A DNA stretch of 64,000 nt from NCBI RefSeq assembly GCF_000170755.1, contig NZ_ABCK01000001.1, positions 310,001 through 374,000 of the forward strand, given 5' to 3'. Every line of letters begins with the position of its first letter. The first letter of the stretch is position 1. This document shows positions 29,122 through 46,866 of this stretch, in pieces. This DNA comes from Lentisphaera araneosa HTCC2155. GTDB lineage: Bacteria; Verrucomicrobiota; Lentisphaeria; Lentisphaerales; Lentisphaeraceae. The notes under the pieces were generated by a model that was not told the DNA's origin, searched no databases, and saw only the letters and a list, made by a program, of their open reading frames with translations. Made by a program: the position numbers and the translations under genes.

Positions 29122-30978
29122 ATGAATCAAGAAGAGTATTTTCAGCAGTTAGAATCGACTTCTACAGCCTTGTTTGATGTGGCTCTTGGACGCGATAGCA
29201 AGGAAGATCGTTATACCGAAATGAATGAAGTCGGTCGAGGCGCCACTAAACACATTTATAAAGTTTTAGATTTAAGTAGTGGTCGCACCGTCGCTCTCGC
29301 TCTTCCGAATGAAGATTTGAGTAAAGAACAAGTCCATGGCTTCTTAGAAGAAGCAAGACTCACGGCCTCTTTACAGCACCCCAACATCATTCAAGTCTAT
29401 AATTTAGGTTATCGTCAAGATGGTAAGCCTTTCTTCACAATGAAATTGTGCTCTGACAAAAAACTGAGCCACATGCTTGCGGACTCGGCAAACTCACTCT
29501 TTGATTTGATGGGCATCTTCCTCAAAGTCTGTGAGGCCGTCTCTTACGCTCATAGTATGGGGGCTATTCATCGGGATATTAAAGACGACAACATCCTTTT
29601 AGGTGACTTCGGCGAAGTTTTACTTTGTGACTGGGGTTCAGCACAAATACTCAAGGACTCGATATTAGAGCAAGAAGTGGGACAGTTAATGAATCCCATT
29701 AGTCTTGGGACAAATGGTTTCATGTCACCTGAACAGACTCAAGGAGGTGAAGCCAGTGAATGTCAAGATATCTACTCATTAGGAGCCCTGCTCTACAAAA
29801 TCTTAACAAAAGAAGAACCTTCAGCAACAGCAAGGCCACCACGAGAAGTAGACCCCACAATCCCTCTAAGTCTCGAAGCTATTTGTTTAAAAGCAAAAGC
29901 GACAAACTCTAAAGATAGATACCTAAATTGCGAAGAGCTTATCACAGATATCAAAGCTTACCTATCTGGCTTTGCTCCCCAAGCTGAAGGCGCTTCACTC
30001 AACAAGCATGTGTGGTTATTTTTAGTCAGGCATAAAAGCTTAACTTTATTTACTCTTTTTAGTTTTATTCTCATCACTTGTTTATCACTCTATTACATCG
30101 TCTCTCTTAAAGAAAAAGAAGCACAAACATCTATTGAACGTGATCGTGCAGAAAATGCCTTGGAACTCTACGACATTGAAAAATCCAGCCGCAAAAAAAT
30201 TGCAGCACTGGGGGCTGACTACTTCTTTCAGCAGGCGGCGCAACTTATCAGTGCTCACTCGAGTCAACTTGCCATCGAATTATTAGAATCCATACCTACA
30301 AAGAGCTTAAGTAAAAAACAAGTAAAGAAAAAAAATATGCTTTATGGACGGATCCACTTTTATAGACAACAGTTCAATCAAGCCTTGGAGTACTTTAACA
30401 AAGGTGAAGTTTACAAAGATAATGAACTCATAAGGATAGCTAAATACTTTGTGAACAAAAAATCCAATGATAGCGAAAGGTTGAACAGTACTGACATAGT
30501 TAAAATTCTTGACCAGCTCTATCAAATTGAAATTCATCAGGCGCATTGCTTCTTTAGGGAGCAAGTTTTAGCAATTACAGATTATGAAGGCCAAATCCCC
30601 ATAATTCAGAAAATGATTAAGCTCAATAACAAGATTGATGATGTGGATATTAAATTTGAAATCATTAATGGTAAGCATCACATGGATCTTTCCCATAACA
30701 AAAATATGCGCCGTTGGGAACCCGTAAGAGAAATGAAGCTAAATCATTTGAACTTATCTCACAGTCCCATAAGAATTCACTTTCATGTCCTTAAAGGAAT
30801 GCCTTTGGAAAGTTTGAATATCGCCTTTACAAAAGTTAAAAATTTTGATTTCCTCTACACTCTCCCCAATTTAAAAGAGCTCATTATTGACAAAAGCATG
30901 ATAAAGGGTTCAAACCTAAATGAAATTCTAGATGAGTTGAAAGATCAAGCTATTCAACTTAGTATTAAAGAAAGTTAA
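29122..30978 (+). CDS. Membrane Ser/Thr kinase with relocated active-site lysine, TPR/LRR-like C-terminus
   Basis: This is a 618-residue bacterial Ser/Thr kinase. The kinase domain (about 33-285) has catalytic HRDIKDDN (Asp152, Lys154, Asn157), DWG instead of DFG (Asp170), MSPEQ, and the conserved Asp in QDIYSLG. The beta-3 VAIK lysine is absent (VALA, Ala60). A lysine instead stands in the glycine-rich loop (GRGATKHIYK, Lys43), as in eukaryotic WNK kinases. Glu77 is the candidate salt-bridge partner. One transmembrane helix (about 306-328) separates it from an extracytoplasmic part with a TPR-like segment (360-420) and a short leucine-rich-repeat-like end (530-618). It is the last gene of the AAA+/MscS operon. 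Its stop overlaps the convergent ECF sigma gene by 4 nt. Confidence 0.9.
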   Translation: MNQEEYFQQLESTSTALFDVALGRDSKEDRYTEMNEVGRGATKHIYKVLDLSSGRTVALALPNEDLSKEQVHGFLEEARLTASLQHPNIIQVYNLGYRQDGKPFFTMKLCSDKKLSHMLADSANSLFDLMGIFLKVCEAVSYAHSMGAIHRDIKDDNILLGDFGEVLLCDWGSAQILKDSILEQEVGQLMNPISLGTNGFMSPEQTQGGEASECQDIYSLGALLYKILTKEEPSATARPPREVDPTIPLSLEAICLKAKATNSKDRYLNCEELITDIKAYLSGFAPQAEGASLNKHVWLFLVRHKSLTLFTLFSFILITCLSLYYIVSLKEKEAQTSIERDRAENALELYDIEKSSRKKIAALGADYFFQQAAQLISAHSSQLAIELLESIPTKSLSKKQVKKKNMLYGRIHFYRQQFNQALEYFNKGEVYKDNELIRIAKYFVNKKSNDSERLNSTDIVKILDQLYQIEIHQAHCFFREQVLAITDYEGQIPIIQKMIKLNNKIDDVDIKFEIINGKHHMDLSHNKNMRRWEPVREMKLNHLNLSHSPIRIHFHVLKGMPLESLNIAFTKVKNFDFLYTLPNLKELIIDKSMIKGSNLNEILDELKDQAIQLSIKES

Positions 30979-31547
30979 CCCCACTCTTGATCCAAACGCC
31001 TTATTTCAGCCGTCAAGCGACGCAAGACACGTTCTTTGTAAACTGATACTTGATTAGGGCTCACATCCATTAACTCAGCTACTTCTGGACGTCTCCTGCC
31101 TTCCTGTAAGAGCTCAAAAATCTTGATCACTTTCTCGGAAAAGAGAGGACGAATATTATCCATGGCTCTCAAAACGGCGTATTTCTTCCAACTCTCTTCA
31201 GTAATGTTCTCAATCTCAGGGTCACTCATACTCTGATCAAAATATTTTTTATTGCGCTCTTCGCGACGCTGATGGCTCCGAAAAAAGTTCTTCACTTGAT
31301 TTCCCGTCACCGTGCACAGCCAGGCACGAAAGCGGCCGTTCTTTTCATATTGAAACTCGGGAAGCTTATCCCAAAGTTTTAATAAAATATCTTGTGTGAG
31401 TTCTTCGGCTTCGTAATGGGCCACGTTCATACGACGACATACCGAGTAGATAAAGGGTCGATAAGTATCGACGAAATCTTCCCATGATTGCTCATCATGT
31501 TTATTTCGTACCTTTTCTAGAAGTGTGAGTCGCGTATTATCATTCAT
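30975..31547 (-). CDS. ECF RNA polymerase sigma factor
   Basis: This 190-residue extracytoplasmic-function sigma factor directs RNA polymerase to a specific promoter set. Region 2 is in FIYSVCRRMNVAHYEAEELTQDILLKLWDKLP, followed by a segment (GRFRAWLCTVTGNQVKNFFR) that forms the rest of sigma-2. Region 4 is near the C-terminus (RRPEVAELMDVSPNQVSVYKERVLRRL), a helix-turn-helix binding the -35 element. It is convergent with the WNK-like kinase gene and overlaps its stop codon. A paralogue at 44309 is more than half identical over the first 90 residues and sits directly upstream of a second such kinase. This strongly suggests each sigma factor is controlled by, or controls, its neighbouring kinase. 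No anti-sigma gene is seen. Confidence 0.93.
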   Translation of the reverse strand: MNDNTRLTLLEKVRNKHDEQSWEDFVDTYRPFIYSVCRRMNVAHYEAEELTQDILLKLWDKLPEFQYEKNGRFRAWLCTVTGNQVKNFFRSHQRREERNKKYFDQSMSDPEIENITEESWKKYAVLRAMDNIRPLFSEKVIKIFELLQEGRRRPEVAELMDVSPNQVSVYKERVLRRLTAEIRRLDQEWG

Positions 31548-31595: not shown

Positions 31596-33371
31596 TTGGT
31601 AACAGAAGCAACATCTAACTTTTTACCCTCGAGTTTTATTTATAATTTATTGAAAGCTTGTCAAAAAAAATCAAAGCCTGTCGTAGTTAAAGAAAAACAC
31701 ACAGGACCTAGATTGAGTAAACACGTAAAATTTGACCAGCTTTTAGCTTATGGTGCAGGTGGCATTGTGCCTATCGCCCTCTTCAATATCACCGGACAAC
31801 TCATGGGCCTCATGGGGAATATTAGTCTAGGCCTAAGTGCTATCCTCATGGGCTTTATTATGCTCATTCCACGCTTATGGGATGCTTTTTCAGATCCAAT
31901 CATGGGGTATATTTCGGATAATCATAAATCAAAAAATGGTCGCCGGCGTCCCTTCATCCTCTATGGCGGCGTGGCCGTTTCCATTAGCTTTGTTTTAATG
32001 TGGTGGGTACCGCGCAGCCAAGAATTCCAAGCATTGTTTCCATCTGAAGGCGCCTACCAGTGGTTCCAGCTCGCTTACATCCTCGTCTTTTTACTCATTT
32101 TTTATACTTCCTGTACAGTCTTTGAAATCCCACATGGTGCCTTGGGAATGGAATTGAGCCACGACCCTGATGATCGTACCAAGCTCTTTTCTGCAAAAAG
32201 CTTCATGGGAAATTTATTTGCCATGGGCACACCGTGGTTATTCTTTTTGGCTAACTTAGAGTTTTTTAAAGGAACAGGAAATGAAATTGATGGCATGCGT
32301 TACGTGTCGCTCTTAGTTGCCTTAATCGTCATCCCCTTATCTTTTTGGTCCTATAAGACACTTCGTGAACCTAAACAAGTTATCGAACCTAAGAAAGAAC
32401 TCAAGATCAGCTTCATTCAAGAATTCAAAAACACCTGGCAAAATAAGACTTTCATTAAACTTATCTTCATCGTCTTTAGTTTAGCTATGGGCTTCAACTT
32501 CGTGGGCTTATTGGGTTACTACATCCCTATTTATTATATTTTCTCGGCGGATAAAGAAGCTGCAGGAGCGCTCTTAGGTTTCAACGGCATGCTGTGGGGT
32601 TTTACTGGCTTACTCGCCGTGTTCCCTTTAAATATGATTGCTCATAAACTTGGCAAAAAGTCTACTCTATTTATTGCGATTATGATTATGATTCTTGCCC
32701 AACTCACTAAAATTGTTTGCTATAATCCCGACTACCCTTACCTCATTGTGATTCCTACCATCATTCTCTCTATTGGTATGTCTTTCTTTTTTACCCTTGG
32801 AGCTGCAATGGTCGGTGATGTTTGCGACGAGAACACCGTCAAGACCGGAAAAACCAAGCAAGGAAGTTATTACTCCATTTATTGGTGGTTCATCAAACTA
32901 GGCACAGCTTTTGCAAGTATCATCACAGGATTTTTAATTAGCTCAGTTAATTTCGATGAAACGCAAGTTCAAAAAGCTGAAGCAATCACACAAAACATAA
33001 GAGAAATTCAAAAGTTCGACTTCCCATCTGAAGAGCAACTAAAAGAGCTTCAAAGCTCCATTGATAAATTCAAAACTCATATGCTTGAAAGTGAGCATAA
33101 AGATAAAGAAATGATTTTATCAAAGCTCTCTAGTATTGAAACAGGTATAACACACAAGTATAGCACGGATCTATACGATGAGCTTGAAATAACGAGCAAG
33201 AAACTGGCGAGCCAATCTACACACACACTTTTATGGATGAGAGTTGTGGAAATTGTTTTGCCTATTTTGCTTTGTCTGATCTCGGCAATCATCTGCTTCA
33301 TTTATCCACTTGGCAAGAAAGAAGTCTTAGCCATCAAAGAACAATTTGATGCTAAGGAAGAAAATACATAA
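31596..33371 (+). CDS. GPH-type (MelB-like) sugar:cation symporter
   Basis: This twelve-helix transporter belongs to the glycoside-pentoside-hexuronide (GPH) family of the MFS superfamily, importing an oligosaccharide or glycoside with H+ or Na+. The family motif is RLWDAFSDPIMGYISDNHKSKNGRRRPFI near the second and third helices. The open frame begins at TTG 31596 and has no early ATG. A TTG at 31713, with AGGA six bases before it, would start just ahead of helix 1 (SKHVKFDQLLAYGAG) and is a likely alternative. A soluble, charged, helical insert of about 90 residues (about 450-540) lies between the last two helices, which is unusual. It is followed by a terminator and then the GH94 phosphorylase gene, suggesting uptake of that enzyme's substrate. 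Confidence 0.85.
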   Translation: MVTEATSNFLPSSFIYNLLKACQKKSKPVVVKEKHTGPRLSKHVKFDQLLAYGAGGIVPIALFNITGQLMGLMGNISLGLSAILMGFIMLIPRLWDAFSDPIMGYISDNHKSKNGRRRPFILYGGVAVSISFVLMWWVPRSQEFQALFPSEGAYQWFQLAYILVFLLIFYTSCTVFEIPHGALGMELSHDPDDRTKLFSAKSFMGNLFAMGTPWLFFLANLEFFKGTGNEIDGMRYVSLLVALIVIPLSFWSYKTLREPKQVIEPKKELKISFIQEFKNTWQNKTFIKLIFIVFSLAMGFNFVGLLGYYIPIYYIFSADKEAAGALLGFNGMLWGFTGLLAVFPLNMIAHKLGKKSTLFIAIMIMILAQLTKIVCYNPDYPYLIVIPTIILSIGMSFFFTLGAAMVGDVCDENTVKTGKTKQGSYYSIYWWFIKLGTAFASIITGFLISSVNFDETQVQKAEAITQNIREIQKFDFPSEEQLKELQSSIDKFKTHMLESEHKDKEMILSKLSSIETGITHKYSTDLYDELEITSKKLASQSTHTLLWMRVVEIVLPILLCLISAIICFIYPLGKKEVLAIKEQFDAKEENT

Positions 33372-33403
33372 ACTTCAATTATTCAACTATTTTGTACATG
33401 ACA

Positions 33404-33443
33404 ACTGAGATCTGTCCCGATGAGGGAGATCTCAGTTTTTTTA
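33404..33443 (+). terminator. Rho-independent terminator after the GPH transporter
   Basis: ACTGAGATCT and its perfect complement AGATCTCAGT flank a 13-nt loop and are followed by a run of T. It lies 32 nt after the stop codon, so the GH94 gene downstream needs its own promoter. Confidence 0.87.
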
Positions 33444-33628
33444 TGCTTTATAATGAACTCCAAATCTCTACTTAATTTAAATAGAAAGAAATAAAGCTTT
33501 AAAAACAAGATCTAGGGCAAGATTATTAAAAAAAAACTATATTTTTGTTTAATTATTTGACCTCTTTTTGTCAACTAAGCCAAAAGCTTTTCGTAGTTCC
33601 TTTTAAACATTACTAACTAAGGAAAATT

Positions 33629-36600
33629 ATGAAAGATATCAAATACAGGTACGAACACACCCTAGGTTTTAGCGAGTTCCGCAACAACACAGGAATGCAC
33701 TTCCGCATTCTCCAAGACGGCACAGCTTATAGCATTGAAAACGACAATGTTATGGTCAACCTTTTCATGGGTAGTATTTTTGATGAAGCTGTGAGCAATA
33801 TCTACCTTCGCGTTTTTAAATCAGGCGAAATCATTTCGACTCCCATGATCTCAAAAAATTCTAAATTTGCGATCTCCGCAGATGATAGAGCTTATGTTTT
33901 AAAAGGTCAATTTGAGAATATTGATTATTCCTTAACTTTCCGTCTTTCCGAAAATACAGGCACCTGGTTCTGGACAGCTTCCGTAGAAAACAAAGGTGCT
34001 GATACTGAAGTTGACTTCATCTATGTACAAGATGCCGGTGTTGCCGCTAAAGGCGCTCCCCTCAATAACGAAGGTTATGTCTCTCACTACATTGACCACA
34101 CTGTGCTCGGTGACAAAGAAAGTGGTTACGTTCTCTTCTCTCGCCAAAACCTCAAACAGCACACGGGCTTCCCTTTCCTTATGTCAGGTGTTCTAGATGG
34201 TGCCACTGGCTTCAGTACTGATGGTATTGACTTCTTTGGCCACCAATACAAAGAGAATGCTGAAATCGCAGCTCTCAAAGAAGAAACATTACGCAGTATT
34301 CGTCGTCAGGGTGAGTTCTCCTGCCACGTGCTTCAGTCAAAGCGCGTCAGTCTTGCGGCTGGTGCTTCTGCAGAAAAAACTTTCTTCGCTTTCTTTGAAA
34401 TCAATCACGAAGCAACGACTTCTTCTGCTGACCTCGAAAAAGTAGAACTCGCTAAAAATGAATTCGCAGCTCTTCCCGCGATTGAGTTTCCTGAAGCCAA
34501 GGCGAGTGGCTACAATAACCTCTTTGGCGAAGCTAAGTTCTTTGCTACTGAAGACCTCACTGAAGCTGATCTTGAAAAATACTTCACTGGCGAAAAACGC
34601 AACCTCGAAGAACTCAATGGTCAAACAGCCGCTTTCTTTTATGGTGATGATTCAAAACACGTTGTTCTCAAAAATAAAGAGTTGAGCTGCGACCGTCCTC
34701 ACGGTCACATTGTTCGTTCAGGTGAAGACCTCTTCCCTTCTGACGAAGCCATTGCTTCGACTTGTTGGATGGGGGGCGTTTTTAACTCACAAGTCACTTT
34801 TGGTAATACTTCATTCAACAAATCAATCGGCATTGTCCGCGGTTGGGTTAATTTTCAACGTGCCTCGGGTCAACGAATCTTTGTTAAAGATGGCGATAAA
34901 ATCGAACAACTTCGCATGCCTTCTGCTTTTGAGATCAGCCTCAACGCTTGTCGCTGGATTTATAAAGGCGCCGAAGAAACGATCATTGTCACAACTCAAT
35001 GTGCTATTTCCGACGCTGTCCTCGTGACAAATATCGAAGTTGAATCAGGTAAAGAACTCGAGTTCATCATCACGAACAACATCATCATGGGTGTGAATGA
35101 ATACGCTAATGAAACTGTGGGACGTGTGGATGACAAACGCTTTACTTTCTTCCCTGGCCACGATTACTTCGGTAAAAATAAGTACCCAAAAAGTCGTTTT
35201 GACCTCTCGGTAAAAGAAGGACAAGCAGATGCTAAACTTTCTGGCGACGAAGTTCTCTTCCTCGATGGCGAGTTCAAAAACTACCCTTACGCGACAATCA
35301 CAACAAGTGCAACAAGCCAATTCGAAATTGTCCTCACGGGCACAATCACTGATGACGTAAAAGCTGATGCAAACGCCAAAAAATACACCGCCGCTGATTT
35401 CGATACGTCGATCTTCAAAGTTGAAGCCGATGCATACTGGCGTTCACTCAATAACAACGCTAAATGCTCTGGGCTTGATAACAACTCAGTATCTAAACTC
35501 AGTGAAGTGATCCCATGGCTCCAGCACAATGCCATGATCCACTACACAAAACCTTACGGTCTCGAACAGTATTCTGGCGCTGCATGGGGTAGCCGTGACG
35601 TTTGCCAGGGTCCTGTAGAACTTCTTCTTGCCTTTGGTAAGACTGAGCCCGTCAAACGCGTTGTGCTCGAAGTTTACAAACACCAATACGAGCAAAATGG
35701 CGAATGGCCTCAGTGGTTCATGTTCGACAAGTTCTCTGATATTCAGCAGGCACACGCTCACGGCGACATCATTGTATGGCCTTTGAAAGCGGTTTGTGAT
35801 TACGTTGAATACTCCAACGACCTTTCCATTCTCGACGAAAAGATTCCTTACACAAATATTGAAGGTTTCGAATTCACTGACAAAGAAGAAACTCTCTTCG
35901 ATCACATCAACAAAGAACTCGATCACATTCGCAATGCTTTTGTCGGTGATACTAAGCTCATCAGTTATGGCGATGGCGACTGGAATGATTCACTTCAGCC
36001 TCACGACCCAGAGATGAAAGATAAACTCGTTTCTGTTTGGACCGTTGAACTTCTTTACCAAACATTTACGCGTTACCAAGTTGTTTGTGAAAAAGCTGGT
36101 AAAACTGAACTCGCAGCAGAACTCAAAGCGACTTGTGGACAAATGAAGAAGGACTTCAATCACTACCTCGTGAAAGACGATCTCACTGCAGGTTTTGCTT
36201 TCTTTAACTCTGAGGACGACGTCGATCTTCTCCTTCACCCAACGGACACAAAAACGGGTGTTAAGTACCGTCTTCTCCCAGCGATTCGCGGTATTATTTC
36301 AGAGATCTTTGAACCTGAACAAGCGGAAGCTCACTACCAAATGATTCAGGATAAACTGCTCTTCAAAGATGGGGTTCACCTCATGGATCCTCCCCCGCAA
36401 TACACGGGTGGTATTTCTAAATCTTTCCAACGTGCGGAAACCGCAACTTTTGTAGGTCGTGAAATTGGTAATCACTATGTCCATGCTCACCTCCGTTACA
36501 TGGAAGCCATGGCTAAGCTCGGTAAAGCCGAAGAACTCTTAACGGCCATGGAAGTTGTGAATCCTGTGAATATTCAGGATAGCTTTGACTCGGCGGAAAT

Positions 36601-37042
36601 CCGTCAATCTAACTGCTACTTCTCATCTTCAGATGCGGACTATAATGACCGTTATGAAGCTCAAGAAACGGTTGAAGATCTTCGCTCTGGTAAAGTTAAA
36701 TCTAAGGGTGGCTGGAGAATCTATTCTTCTGGACCTGGTATCTACGTGAACGTGCTGATTACTCGCGTTCTCGGCATTCGTCGTTTCTATGATGATTTTG
36801 TGATCGATCCCGTTCTTCCTGAGAACTTTGATGGCCTCAATTTCAACTTCGATATCGATGGCAAACCCGTCGTCTTTAAATACAACAAGTCGGCAGATAA
36901 AAAGGTGCTTCTCAATGGTAAAGAGCTCGAGCTCAATACGTCTAGCGACAACCCTTATCGCGATGGTGGTCTGAAGACTAAATGGACAACTTTCCGTCAA
37001 CTTCTTCAAGAAGATAGCAACGTAGTCGAAATTTATTCCTAA
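33629..37042 (+). CDS. GH94 glycoside phosphorylase, probable 1,2-beta-oligoglucan phosphorylase
   Basis: This 1137-residue protein has no signal peptide and is therefore cytosolic. It belongs to GH94, a phosphorolytic family that releases sugar 1-phosphate with inversion. The catalytic-region motif GDGDWNDS (781-788) is present, along with QYSGAAWGSRDVCQGPVELLLAFG, EWPQWFMFDKF, and the closing GGWRIYSSGPGIYVNVL. The length (about 1100 residues) and an N-terminus with ENDNVMVNLF and ISNIYLRV-like patterns match the 1,2-beta-oligoglucan phosphorylase subgroup (EC 2.4.1.333) better than cellobiose phosphorylase (about 800). The exact linkage is inferred from length and from neighbours of GH144 type. 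A strong AAGGAA site precedes the ATG. It would be the inside-cell step after import by the GPH symporter. Confidence 0.82.
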   Translation: MKDIKYRYEHTLGFSEFRNNTGMHFRILQDGTAYSIENDNVMVNLFMGSIFDEAVSNIYLRVFKSGEIISTPMISKNSKFAISADDRAYVLKGQFENIDYSLTFRLSENTGTWFWTASVENKGADTEVDFIYVQDAGVAAKGAPLNNEGYVSHYIDHTVLGDKESGYVLFSRQNLKQHTGFPFLMSGVLDGATGFSTDGIDFFGHQYKENAEIAALKEETLRSIRRQGEFSCHVLQSKRVSLAAGASAEKTFFAFFEINHEATTSSADLEKVELAKNEFAALPAIEFPEAKASGYNNLFGEAKFFATEDLTEADLEKYFTGEKRNLEELNGQTAAFFYGDDSKHVVLKNKELSCDRPHGHIVRSGEDLFPSDEAIASTCWMGGVFNSQVTFGNTSFNKSIGIVRGWVNFQRASGQRIFVKDGDKIEQLRMPSAFEISLNACRWIYKGAEETIIVTTQCAISDAVLVTNIEVESGKELEFIITNNIIMGVNEYANETVGRVDDKRFTFFPGHDYFGKNKYPKSRFDLSVKEGQADAKLSGDEVLFLDGEFKNYPYATITTSATSQFEIVLTGTITDDVKADANAKKYTAADFDTSIFKVEADAYWRSLNNNAKCSGLDNNSVSKLSEVIPWLQHNAMIHYTKPYGLEQYSGAAWGSRDVCQGPVELLLAFGKTEPVKRVVLEVYKHQYEQNGEWPQWFMFDKFSDIQQAHAHGDIIVWPLKAVCDYVEYSNDLSILDEKIPYTNIEGFEFTDKEETLFDHINKELDHIRNAFVGDTKLISYGDGDWNDSLQPHDPEMKDKLVSVWTVELLYQTFTRYQVVCEKAGKTELAAELKATCGQMKKDFNHYLVKDDLTAGFAFFNSEDDVDLLLHPTDTKTGVKYRLLPAIRGIISEIFEPEQAEAHYQMIQDKLLFKDGVHLMDPPPQYTGGISKSFQRAETATFVGREIGNHYVHAHLRYMEAMAKLGKAEELLTAMEVVNPVNIQDSFDSAEIRQSNCYFSSSDADYNDRYEAQETVEDLRSGKVKSKGGWRIYSSGPGIYVNVLITRVLGIRRFYDDFVIDPVLPENFDGLNFNFDIDGKPVVFKYNKSADKKVLLNGKELELNTSSDNPYRDGGLKTKWTTFRQLLQEDSNVVEIYS

Positions 37043-37051
37043 GCACCCCCT

Positions 37052-40000
37052 GTGAAGTATTTCTTTTTAAGCCTACTTTTTTGTTTTAGCCTCTTTGGTC
37101 TCGACCTTGTTGACTCGGGCACCATTCACATGAATGGTGCTGAGGGTCACTCACATTTCTCCAATGAGGGGTCGAAATTAAACTATAAGCTCAAACATCT
37201 AGCTATTGTCGGTAACTGGCACCGCTTAAAAGATATTGAACGAAAAGATTTACTTCACTTCACAATTTCAGATCCTTCCAAAGCGAAGGATCTGCAAATC
37301 AACTTAGAACTCAAGGGAGACGCGGGTGTTCAGCATTTTCCTTTGAGTTCTGAGAGCCAAGATATTCTCATTCAGTGGGATCTACTTGGCAACTTAAACG
37401 AAATCGTTTTGCTCGTCAGTAACACAAAACAATCAACTGTTTCAGGAGAGTTGAATTATAGTTTTGACTTAAGGAATTTCCCTGCATTAGAAAAGAAGCA
37501 AAGTTTTCAAATCGCTGAGTCCGGTGCTTTAAACATCAATTCAGCCATTTCTTTCTTAGACGATAGTAGACTGAAATTTGCTCTCGGACCAGGGGATATT
37601 TGTGGTGTGTGGGCCAAGGGTTTTGATCTTCAGGGCATGGATATATTAGAATTAAATTTATCGCCCCTTCAACTCAACTCTAAGTTGCAATATTCTGTGG
37701 AAATCAAAGGCGACAAAAACACTCAAGTTATCAGCTTAAATGACAGTACTTCACGCACGGTTCTTGATCACGAGAATTTAAGTAAGATAAACGAACTCGT
37801 ACTCTTGATCGAGAATACCAGTCCCAATCATGTCAGTGATCAACTCGCGTTCCAATTGCAAAGTTCAAAAATGACTTTCTTGGAAAAGATCAACCAAGAT
37901 CAAAAACTCGCACTTCTACTTATTCTCATTTGTGCTTTGATTTTTGCCCAATTTTTCAAAACTCCTTCCATGCTCAAGGCAAAAACATACCATAAGTCAC
38001 TTGCGATCAGTTTATACATAAGTTTAAACCTTATTGTTTACTCAATTTCTAACAGCCCTGCTTTGGAAAGGTCTTTTTATCCAATCTTAGCCTTAGCCTT
38101 AGCTTTTTGTTTAAGCGTTCTCATCAGTATTTTAGTGAGTTCAAAACTTCCAAGCCGTCGTGAAGTTTTCACTCATATCTCTCTCATCGGCATTAGCCTG
38201 ACTTTTATATCGACTTCAGCTGTATGGTCAATGCCCGATTCTTTTCTTGATTTGCCCTATTCCGGTGGCTTTGGGACCATTTTATTATTGACGCTCTACT
38301 TCGGTGCCTGCTATTTAAAAGCCAGTAAAAAATCTTTGCCTTTACTCACTTTTTATGGCCTCGCACTCGTCCCAAGTTTTATCTCACTTTTGCTGATGAT
38401 GCAAAACACGGCCTTTCTCAATGAACTCGTACAATTAAAATTCATTAGTCACCAAAGTTTATCAGAGAATATTGGTCTTATCACAAGCCGTTTTCTCATC
38501 CTCTTTTTCTTTGTGGAGTTCATCTGCCAGTGCTTTTCTTTCATCATTAATAAGCATGCTTTGTTCGACAAGAATGCTCATAAAAAACTGGCTTACTTAT
38601 CTTTTGCGATTGTCTTAGCTCCCTATATCGCTGACTTAGGTTGTGGAACTTACATGAGCGAGTTCCCACGAATCTTACAAGCTATCATTGCTGTTGTCAC
38701 AACCGTCTTCTCGCAGGGGATGTTATGGGCTTTTGTGTTTATGATCACGGGTGTGCTCCTCGATGCCATAAAAGGCATTGGTCCTGCGGCGCATACCATT
38801 CACGATCACGCTTTTAAAGGCCGCCATAATGGCCGTGTTTACTCGGGCGTGCTCATGGCGATCTTGCAGCTTTTAGGCATGCTCTGTGAATGGAACTTCA
38901 GTCGTCAGCTCTTTGAATCGTCTCCGATCATAAGTCTAAGTTTAATCATGATCTTTGTTTTCCCCACAGTCAAAGTCATCATCGAAAGTTTTGATGGTAG
39001 CCACGGTTTCTTTGATCGTACCAAGTCCGCTTACAAAGAAAGCCACCTTTACACCCGCGGTGCTTTAGTCGGTTTATCATTAGGTTTAGCCATTCAATGG
39101 AACTTGAGTTCACAACACACTTTTCTCCGGATTCTTTTTGGCTGTATTGCCGGAACCCTTGTCTTTGCAGGCGTTAATGCGCTAAAAGAGAAGAGTGCTA
39201 AATCATTTTTACTTAACTCTCTGCAAGGTGGTTTCATTGGTGCTGCTCTCGCCTTCTACTTTGACGCAGGCCAACTTCCCGTTGTGAGCGAAAGGTTCTT
39301 TAACTACAATACTTTTGCGACAAACGCACAAAACTACTCTTTCGACACGCTCTTATCCAAATGGGGTCACGTGCAGCTCGGGACTTACACGGGTGGTTCA
39401 AAACTCTTTTTCAACCAAGCGCTCAATGGCGTTATTGCCTGGGGTGTTGCTGCCTGGCTCTTTGCCTTAAACCAATCCCTTTTAAAGGCTTTATTTACAC
39501 GCAATAGCATCCACCTCAAACGCATTGTTTCTCAAGATGGGCTCACTGAACTTGCCGAAGGAACCATTCGCGTTTTGCGTTGGGGACTCTGGATGTCACC
39601 CATTATTTTCACTTTCCTTCGTCAAATGCCCGCACCAACTTGGTACAACCAGGATGGTGCGGTTCATACTCTCTTTTGCATTGGAGCGAACTTCACCATG
39701 AGTGCTGAACAATTTCATTCTTGGTCATTAGAAGTCTTTATGTGGATCATGGCTTACGAAGGCTTCCGCATCCTCATTTGGCTCGATCACATGGGCTTGC
39801 GCGTTGCCACTTTAGTTAACTTAAGTTTTATCGGCATGGATGACTTGGATAAGAAATTTGCACGTTTTACGGGCAAGGAAGGCCTCTCTGTCATACCTGA
39901 AGGTGTAAAACGTTTCATGACTTGGGCACCGTTGCTCATCCCCTATTACATTCCTCGTTCAGGAGCTGACTGGGATTATGCTTGGAATAAAGCTCTATCC

Positions 40001-40840
40001 ATACAGGCAAGTAGCCAGAACTTCAATTCACTCAAGCCTACAGTTCTGCTCACTCTATTTGCCTCAACTCTCGTGCTTATCCAGCTCTATTTAACATTCC
40101 GTAAATACAGAGAGAAAAATTCTTTACAGATCAGTAATCAAGAACTTCACCTCTCTTGTCAGGATGGACATGTGAGCAGCTCCATGCACGGCCTTCGATC
40201 AAATATCCAAATCACTCGATCGAGTAAGCTTCATGAAAACTCTCAAATTTTCCTTTTAAAGCACGGAAATGAAAAATTTAATCTCTTTAAAGAATCAAGG
40301 ATTCGCAGAGATGAAAACACACTGATTTTTGAACTCCAGAAAGAATTATTCAAGGCTGAAGTCAAAATCACCATCCCAGTTAAAAGTGATCCTATTTACT
40401 TTGTTGATCTAAAAATTGAGAATGCGAAAAAAGCCGACATCGAACTGATTCTCTATCAAGAGTGGAGCTTAGATAAAGCTAACGAAGATAGTGTGCGAGT
40501 TAAAGAAAAACGTGAATCACAAGAGGTCCTATTGTCGCCGGGATCTAATGCCCTCTACTGCCTACAGCCTACGACTGGAATGTTTGGCTTGATGGCTTCC
40601 CAAAAAGCTCCTAACACTTACTTACGCCATCGTAGCGATTTCGACGCATCGAGCTTAATGAAAGAGGCGCCAAAAACTCAACGTCAATGGCATGCTGACC
40701 CCGCAACTGGACTCGTGCTAAATTTCACTTTGGACGAAAAGGAAAATTATCAAAACCGTTTTGCTATGGGCTGTGCTTTCTACGAAGACGAAGCCATCAA
40801 TTTTGTTAAATCTTATCTCTTACCTGAAACAAGGAAATAA
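37052..40840 (+). CDS. Very large polytopic membrane protein with C-terminal GH94-like beta-sandwich
   Basis: This 1262-residue protein starts with GTG, 9 nt after the previous stop. A signal peptide (1-16) precedes two similar extracytoplasmic domains (about 20-145 and 150-275). Each ends with a matching stretch (LLGNLNEIVLLVSNT and LSKINELVLLIENT), so they are an internal duplication. Residues about 285-1020 contain some twenty transmembrane helices with short loops (AHTIHDHAFKGRHNGRVYSG, PYYIPRSGADWDYAWNKAL). Residues 1023-1262 look like the N-terminal beta-sandwich domain of GH94 and cyclic-glucan-synthase proteins (LILYQEWSL, MASQKAPNTYLRHRSDFDAS, TGLVLNFTL). No GT84 or GH94 catalytic motif was found. 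It may bind, export or sense beta-1,2-glucan. The function is inferred from context. The next gene begins 2 nt after its stop. Confidence 0.72.
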   Translation: MKYFFLSLLFCFSLFGLDLVDSGTIHMNGAEGHSHFSNEGSKLNYKLKHLAIVGNWHRLKDIERKDLLHFTISDPSKAKDLQINLELKGDAGVQHFPLSSESQDILIQWDLLGNLNEIVLLVSNTKQSTVSGELNYSFDLRNFPALEKKQSFQIAESGALNINSAISFLDDSRLKFALGPGDICGVWAKGFDLQGMDILELNLSPLQLNSKLQYSVEIKGDKNTQVISLNDSTSRTVLDHENLSKINELVLLIENTSPNHVSDQLAFQLQSSKMTFLEKINQDQKLALLLILICALIFAQFFKTPSMLKAKTYHKSLAISLYISLNLIVYSISNSPALERSFYPILALALAFCLSVLISILVSSKLPSRREVFTHISLIGISLTFISTSAVWSMPDSFLDLPYSGGFGTILLLTLYFGACYLKASKKSLPLLTFYGLALVPSFISLLLMMQNTAFLNELVQLKFISHQSLSENIGLITSRFLILFFFVEFICQCFSFIINKHALFDKNAHKKLAYLSFAIVLAPYIADLGCGTYMSEFPRILQAIIAVVTTVFSQGMLWAFVFMITGVLLDAIKGIGPAAHTIHDHAFKGRHNGRVYSGVLMAILQLLGMLCEWNFSRQLFESSPIISLSLIMIFVFPTVKVIIESFDGSHGFFDRTKSAYKESHLYTRGALVGLSLGLAIQWNLSSQHTFLRILFGCIAGTLVFAGVNALKEKSAKSFLLNSLQGGFIGAALAFYFDAGQLPVVSERFFNYNTFATNAQNYSFDTLLSKWGHVQLGTYTGGSKLFFNQALNGVIAWGVAAWLFALNQSLLKALFTRNSIHLKRIVSQDGLTELAEGTIRVLRWGLWMSPIIFTFLRQMPAPTWYNQDGAVHTLFCIGANFTMSAEQFHSWSLEVFMWIMAYEGFRILIWLDHMGLRVATLVNLSFIGMDDLDKKFARFTGKEGLSVIPEGVKRFMTWAPLLIPYYIPRSGADWDYAWNKALSIQASSQNFNSLKPTVLLTLFASTLVLIQLYLTFRKYREKNSLQISNQELHLSCQDGHVSSSMHGLRSNIQITRSSKLHENSQIFLLKHGNEKFNLFKESRIRRDENTLIFELQKELFKAEVKITIPVKSDPIYFVDLKIENAKKADIELILYQEWSLDKANEDSVRVKEKRESQEVLLSPGSNALYCLQPTTGMFGLMASQKAPNTYLRHRSDFDASSLMKEAPKTQRQWHADPATGLVLNFTLDEKENYQNRFAMGCAFYEDEAINFVKSYLLPETRK

Positions 40841-40842
40841 AT

Positions 40843-42732
40843 ATGAAAAAACTCCTCTCACTCGGGCTTCTCGCCTTAGTTTCTGCATCATGCACAAGTA
40901 CAAAAACTTACTCAGAAAAACTTCTTGATAACTCATTAAAGTTCGTCGATGAAGAACACGGCATGATTGATCCTTATTCTTCTTATCCTGTAGAAGGTTG
41001 GAACCAGGACCCTGAACGTGGGCTTTACTTGAGAAACTTCACGCAACTCTCTGCGATTGGTGAATACCTTGAGCTTCTAGCTAATATGTCGGCGGGCTAC
41101 TGTGGCGATGCTTACTCACAAGCCGATTCACTCGAAAAACTTGATCGTATGAGCAACACACTATTAACAGATCAAGACAATCCTCAGCTTGCAGCTAAAG
41201 GCCTTATGGTTAACTTTCTCGATTTAGGCAATGGCCATCGTGTAGGCCCGCTCGGTGAAAAAATCAGTAAAGCCAAATTCCAAAAGAACCTTGAGAATAT
41301 TGACACCAATAAACTTTGGGATGTGCTCGTTGAAGCTAAGTGGATCAAGCCCTCAAGTGATGGCACTTGGGCAAACATCCTACGTTCGGATAAATACGGT
41401 ACAGAACATTTTGAAGGTGTGCTTGCCCCTTATTTCGAACAGCGTTATCAAATCATGGAAGTCCTCGATCAGCGCGTGGTGAATATTGTTTTTGGCGACA
41501 ACGTCAACCTAACCGCATCCCTTGCTAAATCTATTGGCGCCCTACTTGACCCCAAACTTGTGGATAATGAAAAAGCTCTAAAAATCCGTAAAAAGCTCGA
41601 CCTTTTTCTAAGAAGGCAAAAAGTTGGTTATGAATCTCTCATCGATCCGAAGACCCAATCATTCTACTTTGCTTGGGATGCAACAAATAATACTTACACG
41701 GGCTGGGAAGTTAATGGAGTCTTTCAAGAAGCTCATATGAATTCATTTATCAATGAATTCCGTGCACCTTGGACTTTTGTTGTTCTTTATTACGACTTAA
41801 ATCCTGCGACTCTCGCAAACGCCGCCTTCAAAATCAAGCCCTACCCACATAGTTCTGGAGAAGACATTTATTCTTTAGCAACGTGGGATGGCTCGGCTTT
41901 CCAATTCCTCGGCCTCACCAACTTCTTACGTGATCAAGATAATCCTGCTTGGAATAAACTTATGACGATTGCTGCTAAAATTCATTTAGATTACTCTAAG
42001 CAACATCAATTGCCTGGTCTATTATCGGAGTCTTATACGGGCAACAAAACTCAATACACGGGCCATGTTGGCTTGCCGTCGAACTGCATTTCTAGCGAAC
42101 ACCGCATAACTGATGCACCCTCACTTTACGCATTGGGTGTTGCTAGCATTTACCAAGCCGAAAAAGTTGAAGCCCTCCTAGAACGTCATTGGGAAACGAT
42201 CTCACTTCTACTCACAGATCACGGCCCATGGGAAGGCTATAACACAACACAGAAAAAAGTCATTGAGTTCCAAACCTCGGCACACACACTTGCCCTTAGT
42301 TTAGGTTTACTCCAAACGGGTCCAGTCATGATGGAACGTTTCTTGGATCATTATGAGCTCAATTCAAAGCTCGCTGAATTCTACCAAGCTGGAGAAAGCT
42401 GGCAAGTAAGCGACTTCGCTAATAGTGAAGTGCGTTTCTCACAAGCTCAGAATTTGAGTAATGGCGAAATCACAGTTGCCTATTCTTCTAGTGCCGATGA
42501 AAAAGCTGTCTTAACTTTTATGCGTAAAGCTGACTCAGCCTACGGTAGAATGGAAATGAATAACGAAATTTACCTAAACCTTAAAGCGAATGAATCAGGC
42601 GAACTCAACATCACCCTACCTGCCGTGCTGAGTTTACACGATATTGAGAGCATTCAGATTAGCCCTCTTTCATCTTCTAAAATCACGAACATTAGCTACA
42701 AAGCTTTTGATTCTGTACTTAAGCAAGATTAA
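40843..42732 (+). CDS. Lipoprotein, possible alpha/alpha-barrel glycan-acting enzyme
   Basis: This 629-residue protein has a signal peptide and a lipobox-like site (LALVSASC, Cys17), so it is probably a lipoprotein. The sequence is acidic to neutral and rich in aromatic and Asp/Asn residues. Segments such as EGWNQDPERGLYLRNFTQL, YTGWEVNGVFQEAHMNSFINE and GHVGLPSNCISSEHRITDAPSLYALGV suggest a helical-barrel enzyme fold like the beta-1,2-glucanase families (GH144 and its relatives). I cannot place it in a named family with confidence, so enzyme activity is only a possibility. It sits 2 nt after the giant membrane protein and 8 nt before the GH144-like gene, within one operon. AAGGA precedes the ATG. 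Confidence 0.65.
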   Translation: MKKLLSLGLLALVSASCTSTKTYSEKLLDNSLKFVDEEHGMIDPYSSYPVEGWNQDPERGLYLRNFTQLSAIGEYLELLANMSAGYCGDAYSQADSLEKLDRMSNTLLTDQDNPQLAAKGLMVNFLDLGNGHRVGPLGEKISKAKFQKNLENIDTNKLWDVLVEAKWIKPSSDGTWANILRSDKYGTEHFEGVLAPYFEQRYQIMEVLDQRVVNIVFGDNVNLTASLAKSIGALLDPKLVDNEKALKIRKKLDLFLRRQKVGYESLIDPKTQSFYFAWDATNNTYTGWEVNGVFQEAHMNSFINEFRAPWTFVVLYYDLNPATLANAAFKIKPYPHSSGEDIYSLATWDGSAFQFLGLTNFLRDQDNPAWNKLMTIAAKIHLDYSKQHQLPGLLSESYTGNKTQYTGHVGLPSNCISSEHRITDAPSLYALGVASIYQAEKVEALLERHWETISLLLTDHGPWEGYNTTQKKVIEFQTSAHTLALSLGLLQTGPVMMERFLDHYELNSKLAEFYQAGESWQVSDFANSEVRFSQAQNLSNGEITVAYSSSADEKAVLTFMRKADSAYGRMEMNNEIYLNLKANESGELNITLPAVLSLHDIESIQISPLSSSKITNISYKAFDSVLKQD

Positions 42733-42740
42733 GTTCAAGT

Positions 42741-44153
42741 ATGAAGAAATTATTCAAATCTCTACTCGGCGAAGCCCCCAAAGCTGCGGAAAATGTTTTC
42801 GTTCAGCCAGCAACTCGAAATGTATATGAAATACTTGGTAGAAGCGCCCATTTAAATGATGATGATTTTTTAGATCTCGTCAGCCGAGCGAGTTTTGAAT
42901 ACTTTTGGCATGAAGCCTCACCAAAAACGGGTATTATTGCCGATAATTTAAATAAGCCCACAACTTATTCGACTGCATCAATTGGCTTTGGTTTAAGTGC
43001 TATGGTAGTCGCCGCTGAACGAGGTTTTAGAGATAGGCAAGAGATTGAGCAAAGAACGCAGACGATTCTCCTTTCCCTGACTAAGACTCAAACCAAAGAC
43101 GGCATGTTCTACCACTTTCTCGATGAAGACTCACAAGTGACAACAGATGGCTATGAAACCGCTATCTCTACGGTAGATACTGGCCTTTTAATCATGGGAG
43201 CCATTACAGCTGGTGAATACTTTGGCGGTAAGTGCAAGGAATATGCCGATCAAATCTTCGAAAAGTGCAATTGGGCCGCCTTTACTGATCACGAACACAA
43301 ACAAGTTTTCATGGCTTGGGAACCTGATAGCAAAGAAGACCTTTCGGGCATAGGAAAATTTCATCCCGTTCGTTGGGATTACTTTAGTGACGAAAGTATC
43401 ATCTGCTGTTTACTAGGTAACGCGAACCCAAACAAAGATTTTGCGCTCCCCGCAGATTACTTCTATCATTGGGCGAGAAATAAAGGTCAGTATCATCCAG
43501 CAACACCAGGCTATCAATCAACAGATGAGTTTGTCTACAGTTATAGCGGAGCTCTATTTACTTATCAATTTGCTCACATCTGGTTAGATTTTGAGCAACT
43601 CGGTAAAGATCAGCCTCGAAAACATCAACTCGATCATGTTCCAGCTATTAACTGGTATCACAATTCACAAGCGGCGACCCAGGCTGCCTGGTTAGTTGCT
43701 ATCGATAATTCTCAAGCTTCACGTACTTATGGCCCCTTTGGCTGGGGCTTTACCGCACACACTTCGATCAATGGTTATAATGTGGGAGCGATCCTTCCAA
43801 GAGGCGAACAAAATCAACCCTTTATGCTCAACGGCGAAGTGGCTCCTTATGGTGCGGGAACCTGCATCATGTTTGAACCAGAAAAAGCGATTAAGACTTT
43901 GCGTTATTATTACGGCCTCCACGACGATAATGACAACGCCATTGTGTGGAATAATGAAGGTGAAACTCCTTATGGTTTTTACGATACATTTAACTTAGAT
44001 TCAGGTTATGTGGCGCAACAGTACCTCGGTATTGATTTGGGTCCGATGTTATTGGCTATAGAAAATCACCGTACTGGACTCATTCAAGAAACCTTTATGA
44101 AGAACGAACATATTCAAAAAGCTCTTAAAAATATTGGCTTTGAAAAGCTTTAA
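42741..44153 (+). CDS. GH144-like glycoamylase-fold enzyme (probable beta-1,2-glucanase)
   Basis: This 470-residue protein matches the glycoamylase-like domain (PF10091) that defines GH144 endo-beta-1,2-glucanases. The pattern is RASFEYFWHEASPKTGIIADN near the start, then TASIGFGLSAMVVA, the acidic ETAISTVDTGLLIMGA, WDYFSDESII, SYSGALFTYQFAHIW, and near the end YGFYDTFNLDSGYVAQQYLGIDLGPML. No signal peptide is seen at the chosen ATG, so it may be cytosolic; the N-terminus (1-40) is short and charged. It ends an operon with the GH94 phosphorylase, the giant membrane protein and the lipoprotein. Together they fit hydrolysis and phosphorolysis of beta-1,2-glucan. Substrate is inferred, not proved. 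A paralogous domain occurs in the protein at 46998. Confidence 0.8.
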   Translation: MKKLFKSLLGEAPKAAENVFVQPATRNVYEILGRSAHLNDDDFLDLVSRASFEYFWHEASPKTGIIADNLNKPTTYSTASIGFGLSAMVVAAERGFRDRQEIEQRTQTILLSLTKTQTKDGMFYHFLDEDSQVTTDGYETAISTVDTGLLIMGAITAGEYFGGKCKEYADQIFEKCNWAAFTDHEHKQVFMAWEPDSKEDLSGIGKFHPVRWDYFSDESIICCLLGNANPNKDFALPADYFYHWARNKGQYHPATPGYQSTDEFVYSYSGALFTYQFAHIWLDFEQLGKDQPRKHQLDHVPAINWYHNSQAATQAAWLVAIDNSQASRTYGPFGWGFTAHTSINGYNVGAILPRGEQNQPFMLNGEVAPYGAGTCIMFEPEKAIKTLRYYYGLHDDNDNAIVWNNEGETPYGFYDTFNLDSGYVAQQYLGIDLGPMLLAIENHRTGLIQETFMKNEHIQKALKNIGFEKL

Positions 44154-44308: not shown

Positions 44309-44908
44309 ATGAATGAAGAAAATTTCCATACGAGAGAAACACTCTTAGAAAAAATTCGCAATCGCCATGATGAAGCGTCATGGGAAGATTTTGTTTTTTA
44401 CTACCGTCAATATGTCTACATCATTTGCCGAGGCATGAATGTCAATCACCACGATTCAGAAGAGATTGTTCAAAAAGTTATGATGAAAGCTTGGGATAAA
44501 CTTCCAGAATTTGAATACGACAAAAAAAAGCGTTTTCGAGGCTGGCTCTGCATGGTCACAGGAAACACCGTGAAAGATTTTTTTAGATCCTACAAGAGAC
44601 GTCAGGATAGGAAGGAAAAAGCCGCTGATTATCAAGCTTGGAATCCCGAAAGGACGAGTGGCCCTGAAATCGAAGAATATGCTGAGCGTGAATGGGAAAA
44701 CTACATCAGCAATATGGCGCTCAATAATATAAAAGATAAATTCTCTGAAAATGTCATGAAGTGCTTCACTGAACTCAACGAAGGTAAATCCGCTAAAGAT
44801 TTTAGTGAGGAAACTGGTATGGCACTCAATACTGTTTACGTTTATAACAAGCGCGTCACCAATAAATTTCACGAAGAAATTCGCCGCCTCTATTACGAAC
44901 TTAGTTAA
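44309..44908 (+). CDS. ECF RNA polymerase sigma factor (paralogue)
   Basis: This is a 199-residue ECF sigma factor. Sigma-2 is in YVYIICRGMNVNHHDSEEIVQKVMMKAWDKLP, followed by RFRGWLCMVTGNTVKDFFR. Sigma-4 lies in GKSAKDFSEETGMALNTVYVYNKRVTNKF. More than half of the first 90 residues are identical to the sigma factor at 30975, so the two are recent paralogues. The stop codon overlaps the kinase start by 1 nt (TAATG), so this sigma and its kinase are translationally coupled. It would be expected to act at a specific promoter set; the targets are unknown. A promoter in the 155-nt gap after the GH144-like gene is likely but not defined. Confidence 0.93.
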   Translation: MNEENFHTRETLLEKIRNRHDEASWEDFVFYYRQYVYIICRGMNVNHHDSEEIVQKVMMKAWDKLPEFEYDKKKRFRGWLCMVTGNTVKDFFRSYKRRQDRKEKAADYQAWNPERTSGPEIEEYAEREWENYISNMALNNIKDKFSENVMKCFTELNEGKSAKDFSEETGMALNTVYVYNKRVTNKFHEEIRRLYYELS

Positions 44909-46866
44909 TGAACGACGAAAACCAGGATCTCTATACGAATTTCAAACCTTTAGGTGAGCACTTTCGAGCGGCGTTTGAAGAGCAATCCACAAAGGACACG
45001 CTCTTCTACGATGAAATCAGCAACGTTCATGACCGCTACCAAAAGGATACCGAAATTGATCATGGTGGCATGAAACAAGTTTCGCGTTATTCCGATCGTT
45101 TTACCATGCGTGAAATCGCCTTAGCAGAACTGCTTGATTCGGATAGCCCCGCCAATATTGATCGATTTATACGTGAAGCTCGTTTAACGGCCTCCCTGCA
45201 GCATCCGAGTATTATGCCCATTTACGATATGGGGCTCAACGATGATGGCGAACCCTTTTTCACAATGAAACTTTTCCAAGGCTTACGAGTCGATGAATGG
45301 CGCGAGAAAATAGATATTCGAAAATCCGACTCATTTCAGGAAATGATGCAAATCTTTGTGAAAGTCTGCCAAGCCATTTCCTACGCACATGATAATGGCG
45401 TAATACACCTCGACTTAAAGCCAGAGAATATTGGTGTTGGTGCCTATGGTGAGGTACTGGTTTTTGACTGGGGAATCGCCAAGATTATTGATGACCAAGA
45501 CGATTCACCGACAGCGAGTCTTCTGGACCCACAAGTTTATAATGACGCCACTTTAAACGGTGTCATTAAAGGTTCTCCCGGTTATTTGGCGCCTGAACAA
45601 ATTGATTCTAAATACGGCGCCAAGGATGAACGCACTGACGTTTATGCCCTAGGTGGGATTCTCTACTTTATTTTATCTGGACACAAGCCCATAAAATCCA
45701 ATGATGATTTAATGGAATCACTCAACAAAACGATTAACGGCGACATCATCAAGCCCTCTAAAATGGTAGATTTCGCTATACCCGAAAGTTTAGAAGCCGT
45801 CGCCATGAAGGCCCTTTCTACAAAGTCCGAAAATCGCTATCAGAGTGTGGATGAACTATTGAGTGAAGTCAATCTATGGATCAATGGCTTTGCGACTCAC
45901 GCAGAAAATGCGAGCTTTTCTCGATCTCTAGTTTTACTAATGAGAAGACATAAAGATATCACTTTAATGATGGCTCTAATGAGTATAATTGTGATCTATG
46001 GGATTGCGCAAATTATCATTAGCGAAAGACGCGCTGTAAAAAATGAACAAGAAGCCATTGCTGCACTCGAGCTCTATAAAACTGAGAAAGAGCATAGTAA
46101 ACAACTCGGTAAAGAAGTCGCTCCCTACATGGTCAATGACCTACTTAAAGAGCTCTCGGAAAGTAGTACTTATGATTTTGATAAAGCTTTGCGAATTGCG
46201 CAAACTACTGTGGCTCGAGATCCCGATTTTTCCGATGCTCGCTTAGTTTTAGGCAGGACTCACTTTGTGCGTCAAGAGTTTCAACTTGCTCTCGAGACAC
46301 TTACTTCATTAACTGAGAATCAACGTAAACACAGTAAAATATTTGACCTAGCAAAGAAATATGGCTCAATGAAAAGTGATTCAGAATTACTTAAAACTAA
46401 AGATCTCATTAACTTAATGAATGAACTCAAGCACATGCAGATGTCATTCTTAATGGCAGGTTTTGCCGAGCAAAAAATGAATGATGTCCAAGATAAAATC
46501 AACATCGCTGAATACATGCTAAAAGTCACCAATAAGTTAGCGGCTCCAACCATGAATTTAAAAATCAAAGTTCTTGATAATGAGGCTCTATCTGTCGATT
46601 TGAGTGACAACCCCCAACTCACTTCTGTATCAGGAATCCGTAATTTAAACGTTAAAATTTTAAATATCTCAAATACAAGCATCAAAATTACTTTGGATTT
46701 GGCTCGTATGCCTCTAGAAACTTTGATCATTAAAAAATCAAAAATTCCCAACATTCATGAGCTCACTAAACTCAAGGGGCTGAATACTTTAGTCATAGGA
46801 ACGAATGATTATCCCAGATTCAATAAAAGAAAAAACCTAAATGGCGTCGAAATTATTAGACAATAA
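44908..46866 (+). CDS. Membrane Ser/Thr kinase, relocated lysine, LRR-like C-terminus (paralogue)
   Basis: This 652-residue kinase is built like the one at 29122. In the kinase domain (about 45-325) the glycine-rich loop is IDHGGMKQV with Lys56, while beta-3 has IALA (Ala73) in place of the VAIK lysine. Glu90 is in the helix-C motif FIREARLTASLQHPS. The catalytic loop is HLDLKPEN (Asp169, Lys171, Asn174), with Leu in place of the Arg of HRD, and the metal site is FDWG (Asp187). A transmembrane helix lies about 350-372. The C-terminal part has a TPR-like region (425-475) and LRR-like end (LSVDLSDNPQLTSVSG, LETLIIKKSKI). It is coupled to the ECF sigma factor gene. Confidence 0.9.
   Translation: MNDENQDLYTNFKPLGEHFRAAFEEQSTKDTLFYDEISNVHDRYQKDTEIDHGGMKQVSRYSDRFTMREIALAELLDSDSPANIDRFIREARLTASLQHPSIMPIYDMGLNDDGEPFFTMKLFQGLRVDEWREKIDIRKSDSFQEMMQIFVKVCQAISYAHDNGVIHLDLKPENIGVGAYGEVLVFDWGIAKIIDDQDDSPTASLLDPQVYNDATLNGVIKGSPGYLAPEQIDSKYGAKDERTDVYALGGILYFILSGHKPIKSNDDLMESLNKTINGDIIKPSKMVDFAIPESLEAVAMKALSTKSENRYQSVDELLSEVNLWINGFATHAENASFSRSLVLLMRRHKDITLMMALMSIIVIYGIAQIIISERRAVKNEQEAIAALELYKTEKEHSKQLGKEVAPYMVNDLLKELSESSTYDFDKALRIAQTTVARDPDFSDARLVLGRTHFVRQEFQLALETLTSLTENQRKHSKIFDLAKKYGSMKSDSELLKTKDLINLMNELKHMQMSFLMAGFAEQKMNDVQDKINIAEYMLKVTNKLAAPTMNLKIKVLDNEALSVDLSDNPQLTSVSGIRNLNVKILNISNTSIKITLDLARMPLETLIIKKSKIPNIHELTKLKGLNTLVIGTNDYPRFNKRKNLNGVEIIRQ

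Follow-up and report, generated by a model that had tools for sequence, protein, structure and literature searches.

A family of putative PknB-type receptor kinases in Lentisphaera araneosa with a WNK-like lysine in the glycine-rich loop

Introduction

WNKs have been described as the only functional family of eukaryotic protein kinases (ePKs) that lacks the β-3 lysine (Kannan et al. 2007; PMC1821047), and a lysine at position 55 is needed for their catalysis (PMC1821047; PKA numbering, in which the β-3 VAIK lysine is Lys72). Families without the K of the K-D-D triad are usually classed as pseudokinases (PMC12599244, PMC11032199). A K-D-D filter was applied in a paper on kinases of the Planctomycetes–Verrucomicrobia–Chlamydiae (PVC) group (PMC11032199). 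Bacterial kinases acting on extracytoplasmic function (ECF) sigma factors have precedents in PknS/EcfK and PknT/EcfP (PMC13147305, PMC8999054). Here, we describe two membrane kinase genes, termed A and B, in a 64,000-nucleotide stretch of the Lentisphaera araneosa HTCC2155 genome (the window), together with the large family to which they belong. Its members carry lysine at position 55 and alanine at position 72 (Lys55 kinases) and would be excluded by the K-D-D filter. The family probably consists of active PknB-type receptor Ser/Thr kinases, in which the lysine has moved from β-3 to the glycine-rich loop at the start of β-2, and each of which controls its own partner sigma factor, in many cases for the use of sulfated glycans.

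Results

A complete lysine swap at two positions

The kinase A gene (29,122–30,978, forward strand) encodes 618 amino acids with a Pkinase match of 120 bits, and the kinase B gene (44,908–46,866, forward strand) encodes 652 amino acids with a match of 95 bits. The two open reading frames and their motifs lie where a sequence-only reading of the window had placed them. Kinase A has GRGATKHIYK in the glycine-rich loop (Lys43, codon 29,248–29,250) and VALA in β-3 (Ala60, codon 29,299–29,301), and kinase B has HGGMKQV (Lys56, codon 45,073–45,075) and IALA (Ala73, codon 45,124–45,126), all on the forward strand. Alignments and structure models place both lysines at the third glycine of the GxGxxG motif, that is, PKA Gly55, which is the position of WNK1 Lys233, and both alanines in the column of PKA Lys72. 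The WNK1 sequence, verified against the Protein Data Bank (PDB), aligns with this region of kinase A without gaps (GRGSFKTVYK with Lys233, and VAWC with Cys250), and the spacing between the two sites is 17 residues in both proteins.

The window is one part of a 6.02-Mb genome with 105 Pkinase matches, of which 61 have Lys55 and Ala72, 34 have the canonical Lys72, and 10 are partial or degenerate. All 61 Lys55 kinases have Ala72 and none of the 34 Lys72 kinases has Lys55; the pairing is therefore not due to chance. No intermediates between the two states were seen among the 105 matches. Comparison of the family with its canonical relatives showed that columns 55 and 72, and no others, separate the two groups completely. 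In the profile set, Lys55 without a β-3 lysine, alanine at the β-3 position, and DWG were each found in 104/104 sequences. In three rows (L141, L203, and L204), the apparent absence of both lysines (G55/A72) came from profile misalignment; their sequences read AMK or ALK. One Lys55/Ala72 kinase (L053:3523-3903; G000:C7:244691-245491) contains an in-frame TAA after 126 codons, and its sigma factor gene is still adjacent. An HLD- and DWG-containing kinase whose N-lobe is cut off by a contig end (L091; G000:C52:10120-10566) is probably a 62nd member.

The sequence-only reading had treated the arrangement as a feature of two kinases and had suggested a search for further bacterial examples. Both kinases are real, and the family runs to about 60 members per genome: in addition to the 61 in L. 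araneosa, more than 60 Lys55/Ala72 kinases were found in Lentisphaerota (L. marina, WC36, and Victivallales), Kiritimatiellota (Pontiellaceae), and Verrucomicrobiota (an Akkermansiaceae metagenome-assembled genome (MAG) and JB023). A phylum-wide sample gave strong matches in 79/388 genomes; part of these 79 was classified, and G010, G015, and G018 among them are led by canonical kinases. All 23 loci newly fetched from this sample are Lys55/Ala72. Six single genomes were also searched, with Planctomycetota sampled in this way. Across those of Planctomycetota, Myxococcota, and an Akkermansia MAG, the 27 best matches whose N-lobe could be read were without exception canonical, and in WC36 all three best matches were Lys55/Ala72. 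Sequences from other Lentisphaeria families (L192, L194, and L195, with which L120 was also grouped) have Gly55/Lys72, yet they share HLD and a C-lobe threonine with the Lys55 family. L192, L194, and L195 may be pre-swap relatives or reversals.

Predicted structure and architecture

In an AlphaFold2 model of the kinase domain of kinase A (predicted local distance difference test (pLDDT) score, 92.9), strand β-2 begins exactly at Lys43 and Ala60 lies in β-3. A full-length model of kinase B (pLDDT 85.5) likewise has β-2 beginning exactly at Lys56 and Ala73 in β-3. The first residue of β-2 in the models corresponds to the position of WNK1 Lys233. Kinase A is predicted to consist of a cytoplasmic PknB-type kinase domain, one transmembrane (TM) helix (about residues 309–327), and a C-terminal TPR/LRR-like part. 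In the kinase B model, the kinase domain is followed by a long helix that passes through the single predicted TM segment (about residues 353–371), TPR-like helices, and LRR-like strands at the end. One TM helix was predicted in 59/60 family members, with the kinase mostly inside. No PASTA domain was found in 36 family members, and the NCBIfam PASTA-kinase model NF033483 gave 161 and 178 bits, far under its cut-off of 450. Short Lys55/Ala72 kinases of about 370–440 amino acids (L185, L187, L189–L191, L217, L222, L224, and L227) possibly represent a second architecture.

Active site residues

The αC glutamate is invariant in the 61 Lys55 kinases of the genome. The catalytic-loop Asp, Lys, and Asn and the DWG motif are kept in all 60 scorable members, the remaining copy being broken by a stop codon. 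The catalytic Asp, Lys, and Asn, the DWG Asp, and the αC Glu are also invariant over more than 100 divergent family sequences. The catalytic-loop Asp and Asn and the DWG reported in the sequence-only reading are thus present, with one detail to be added: kinase A reads HRD, and kinase B reads HLD. The latter form occurs in 57/61 Lys55 kinases. At the position of PKA Leu173, which forms the adenine floor as part of the catalytic spine (C-spine), most Lys55 kinases have a polar residue (Gln, Arg, Asn, or His), and the canonical relatives have Met or Leu; in kinase A it is Leu159. A conserved C-lobe threonine is a further feature of the family. When family and canonical columns were compared, no other family-specific invariant basic residue able to replace Lys72 was found in the N-lobe.

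Lys55 would take over the role of Lys72 by pairing with the invariant αC Glu and contacting the ATP phosphates. We read the kinases as active because the moved lysine would do the job of Lys72, and because the invariant Glu, Asp, Lys, Asn, and DWG would be superfluous in a dead kinase. Under the definition of a pseudokinase as a protein that has lost at least one of K72, the HRD Asp, and the DFG Asp, the family formally falls in this class through K72 only; both aspartates are kept, and the definition is no measure of activity. These proteins might nevertheless be true pseudokinases, in which the glycine-rich loop lysine merely aids nucleotide binding and an ATP-dependent scaffold holds or releases the sigma factor without phosphotransfer. 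The missing K of the triad, HLD in place of HRD, and the polar residue at one C-spine position fit such a role. Pseudokinases, however, usually erode, whereas the catalytic residues here are invariant across the divergent members. The relocated lysine, too, never varies, and it occupies the only site at which a lysine is known to rescue a kinase, as in WNK. We consider the scaffold explanation unlikely. With complete covariation, the start of β-2 at the lysine in two models, and the remaining active site intact, the WNK-like relocation proposed earlier appears well founded at the sequence level.

Chloride-site residues and the MscS gene

An MscS-family channel gene (28,008–29,120, forward strand; MS_channel_2nd) lies directly upstream of kinase A, and the sequence-only reading had hinted at an osmotic or chloride-related role. 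In such a sensor, loss of the β-3 lysine would open a halide site through which the kinase is switched. The halide site of WNK1 has been linked to the unusual lysine position (PMC4718504), and the marine host would suit such a sensor. The chloride-site positions of WNK, however, differ in the family: L369 is replaced by Trp, L299 by Phe, and F283 by Val or Ile; only L371 is mostly kept as Leu (92/104), as it is in the canonical relatives. The halide-sensor reading is unsupported, since the family lacks these WNK1 residues and has in their place much the same residues as the canonical Lys72 relatives. MscS was not among the recurrent neighbors of Lys55 kinases in the sampled neighbor set, which covers loci other than that of kinase A, and the neighboring genes suggest glycan use instead. 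An osmotic or chloride sensor of the WNK kind is thus highly improbable, and the hint is not supported.

Linkage to sigma factor genes

Both kinases of the window adjoin an ECF-type sigma factor gene. The partner of kinase A (30,975–31,547, reverse strand; matches to Sigma70_r2 and, above the cut-off, to TIGR02937, sigma70-ECF) is convergent with it and overlaps by four bases. That of kinase B (44,309–44,908, forward strand) is directly upstream, overlaps by one base, and encodes an N-terminal TRETL motif. An ECF-type sigma factor gene was present within 500 bp of 51/61 Lys55 kinases, as opposed to 5/34 canonical kinases. It was upstream on the same strand in 35 cases, convergent downstream in 12, and otherwise arranged in 4. 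The adjacency recurs in other genera.

The distances among kinases and among sigma factors are correlated (Mantel r = 0.67 for 50 pairs; the largest value of 2000 permutations was 0.17), as expected for cognate pairs or for pairs duplicated together. Toward the N terminus, ahead of region 2, the sigma factor partners share the motif T-R-x-[T/S]-L, with the first Thr and the second Thr/Ser conserved in 50/50 each. They also keep the acidic sigma-2.2 motif (Asp or Glu at the last position in 50/50 and at the third in 41/50). Activation of the ECF43 type, in which the acidic sigma-2.2 motif is lost and a phosphorylatable Thr stands in its place, was considered and rejected, the acidic residues being kept.

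One alternative is that the kinases are active on other targets and that the sigma factor gene is a passenger duplicated with them. Duplication as a unit would by itself yield the Mantel correlation, the retained acidic motif implies that no phosphate is needed at sigma-2.2, and 10/61 kinases have no sigma factor gene nearby. On the other hand, the linkage persists across the different gene arrangements and in other genera, and direct kinase–sigma pairs have precedents. A passenger role seems somewhat unlikely, and we favor control of the sigma factor by the adjacent kinase.

Relationship to PknB and WNK1

The best solved relative of the family is Mycobacterium tuberculosis PknB, both by sequence (E = 5e-56) and by fold. 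WNK1, for its part, has its closest relatives outside the WNKs among eukaryotic kinases. In the smaller, careful tree, in which PKA and PAK1 are represented by typed-in sequences, WNK1 and PAK1 fall together, and all bacterial kinases are separated from PKA, PAK1, and WNK1 by a branch with 100/98 support. Forcing a clade of the family with WNK1 in this tree cost 40.6 log-likelihood units and was rejected by the approximately unbiased (AU) test (p = 0.0012). The same constraint cost 23 units in a quick tree of 101 rows and was not significant (p = 0.218). When the bacterial Lys55 kinases were held as one clade, the likelihood rose in both trees, which is compatible with a single origin but leaves it unproven.

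The identical lysine position and spacing could in principle reflect true WNK homologs acquired from a eukaryote by horizontal transfer. The affinity to PknB, the split of the three eukaryotic kinases from all bacterial ones, and the rejection of the WNK1 clade, though not in the larger quick tree, make this possibility almost negligible. Since PknB is closest, WNK1 belongs with eukaryotic kinases, and the joint clade is rejected, the shared lysine position is best explained by convergence within the PknB-like radiation, which the sequence-only reading had already raised.

Genes for glycan use

Between the two kinase–sigma pairs lie genes for glycan use (31,596–44,153, forward strand) that encode an MFS_2 sugar transporter, a SOGP-type GH94 phosphorylase, two proteins without a Pfam family match (37,052–40,840 and 40,843–42,732), and a PF10091 protein. 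From the SOGP domains, one might guess that β-1,2-glucan is the target of this locus. A sulfatase gene (48,548–50,107, forward strand; PF00884 and PF16347) is located downstream of kinase B. The 491-residue protein encoded between these two genes (46,998–48,473) has a zinc-ribbon-like N terminus and no Pfam match.

The sampled neighbors of Lys55 kinases included 24 sulfatases among 102 proteins, as well as SASA esterases and GH95, and sulfatases were not among the families listed for 85 neighbors of canonical kinases. Based on a partial list of 150 sulfatases, 20/61 Lys55 kinases had one within 5 kb, compared with 1/34 of the canonical kinases; for random positions, the share was 17.7%. The genome as a whole carries 150 or more sulfatase genes, with 340 candidates in the initial scan.

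Discussion

Here, we propose a signaling route for the Lys55 kinases. A periplasmic signal or ligand would be sensed by the TPR/LRR-like region that follows the single TM helix at the C-terminal end. The kinase would then control the co-encoded ECF-type sigma factor, perhaps by phosphorylation at the N-terminal T-R-x-[T/S]-L motif, and the sigma factor would transcribe nearby genes, often for sulfated-glycan use.

Several observations weigh against this proposal. Kinase activity is deduced from conserved sequence, and contact of Lys43 and Lys56 with the ATP phosphates is likewise presumed, as the models give the position of the lysine in the strand and not the direction of its side chain. Nucleotide handling may differ from that of canonical kinases because the adenine-floor residue is polar and HLD makes 96% of the family non-RD. 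The T-R-x-[T/S]-L motif is a candidate phosphosite and not proof of one, because it also occurs in 3/5 sigma factors beside canonical kinases. Ten of the 61 Lys55 kinases have no sigma factor gene within 500 bp, and none was found in the small flanks covered for the short members from other families. The sulfatase linkage is just about twofold over random positions.

In the open-access literature, to which the search was confined, no earlier description of such a bacterial family was found. Nor is it described in the searched text of the 2007 microbial kinome paper (PMC1821047), of a review on bacterial pseudokinases from 2025, or of the study of PVC kinases (PMC11032199). Taken together, it is possible, but should be regarded as tentative, that the family is a second, independent clade of active kinases with a glycine-rich loop lysine, comprising about 60 paralogs per genome, each governing a dedicated sigma factor via a TRxT phosphoswitch for lineage-specific sensing of (sulfated) glycans. 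A bacterial clade with the WNK swap would show that the lysine move is repeatable, and the more than 100 natural sequences with their canonical sister kinases are material for studying how the swap happens. The rule that absence of the VAIK lysine denotes a pseudokinase, as in the K-D-D filter (PMC11032199), would drop more than half of the kinome here. Because most Lys55 kinases adjoin their own sigma factor gene, the data point to a large uncharacterized kinase–sigma signaling system in marine polysaccharide degraders.

Comparison with known systems

WNK1 and WNK3 share with the family the lysine at the third glycine of the loop and the start of β-2, the absence of a β-3 lysine, the equal spacing, and the retained αC Glu, catalytic Asp, and DxG. 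They differ in having Cys (WNK1 Cys250) where the family has Ala in β-3, DLG in place of DWG, and HRD in place of the mostly HLD motif. The family also lacks the WNK chloride-site residues, has a TM receptor architecture, and is separate in the tree.

CAK-chloro kinase-like proteins have also moved the positive charge from position 72 to 55 (PMC1821047). By their published description, however, they have Arg55 and Met72, Phe for the αC Glu, and resemble small-molecule kinases. The bacterial pseudokinase families of O'Boyle et al. 2025 (ActPs, GLW, CP1, DYD, and DLHK) likewise lack the β-3 lysine in many or all members; in the searched text of that review, a position-55 lysine is ascribed to none of them, and no family from Lentisphaerota or Planctomycetota is named.

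PknB-type receptor kinases are the closest by sequence and fold and have the same N-terminal cytoplasmic kinase and one TM helix. PknB keeps the β-3 lysine, whereas all members of the family have Ala, and no PASTA domain was found in them. In the known ECF sigma–kinase pairs (EcfP/PknT and EcfK/PknS of ECF43, and the planctomycete groups ECF59, 61, 62, and 217), the sigma factor gene stands beside a membrane kinase gene, as it does here. The acidic sigma-2.2 motif is absent from ECF43 and kept in the partners of the Lys55 kinases, as reported for groups other than ECF43. What distinguishes L. araneosa from these pairs is the rearranged kinase active site and the presence of about 50 such pairs in one genome.

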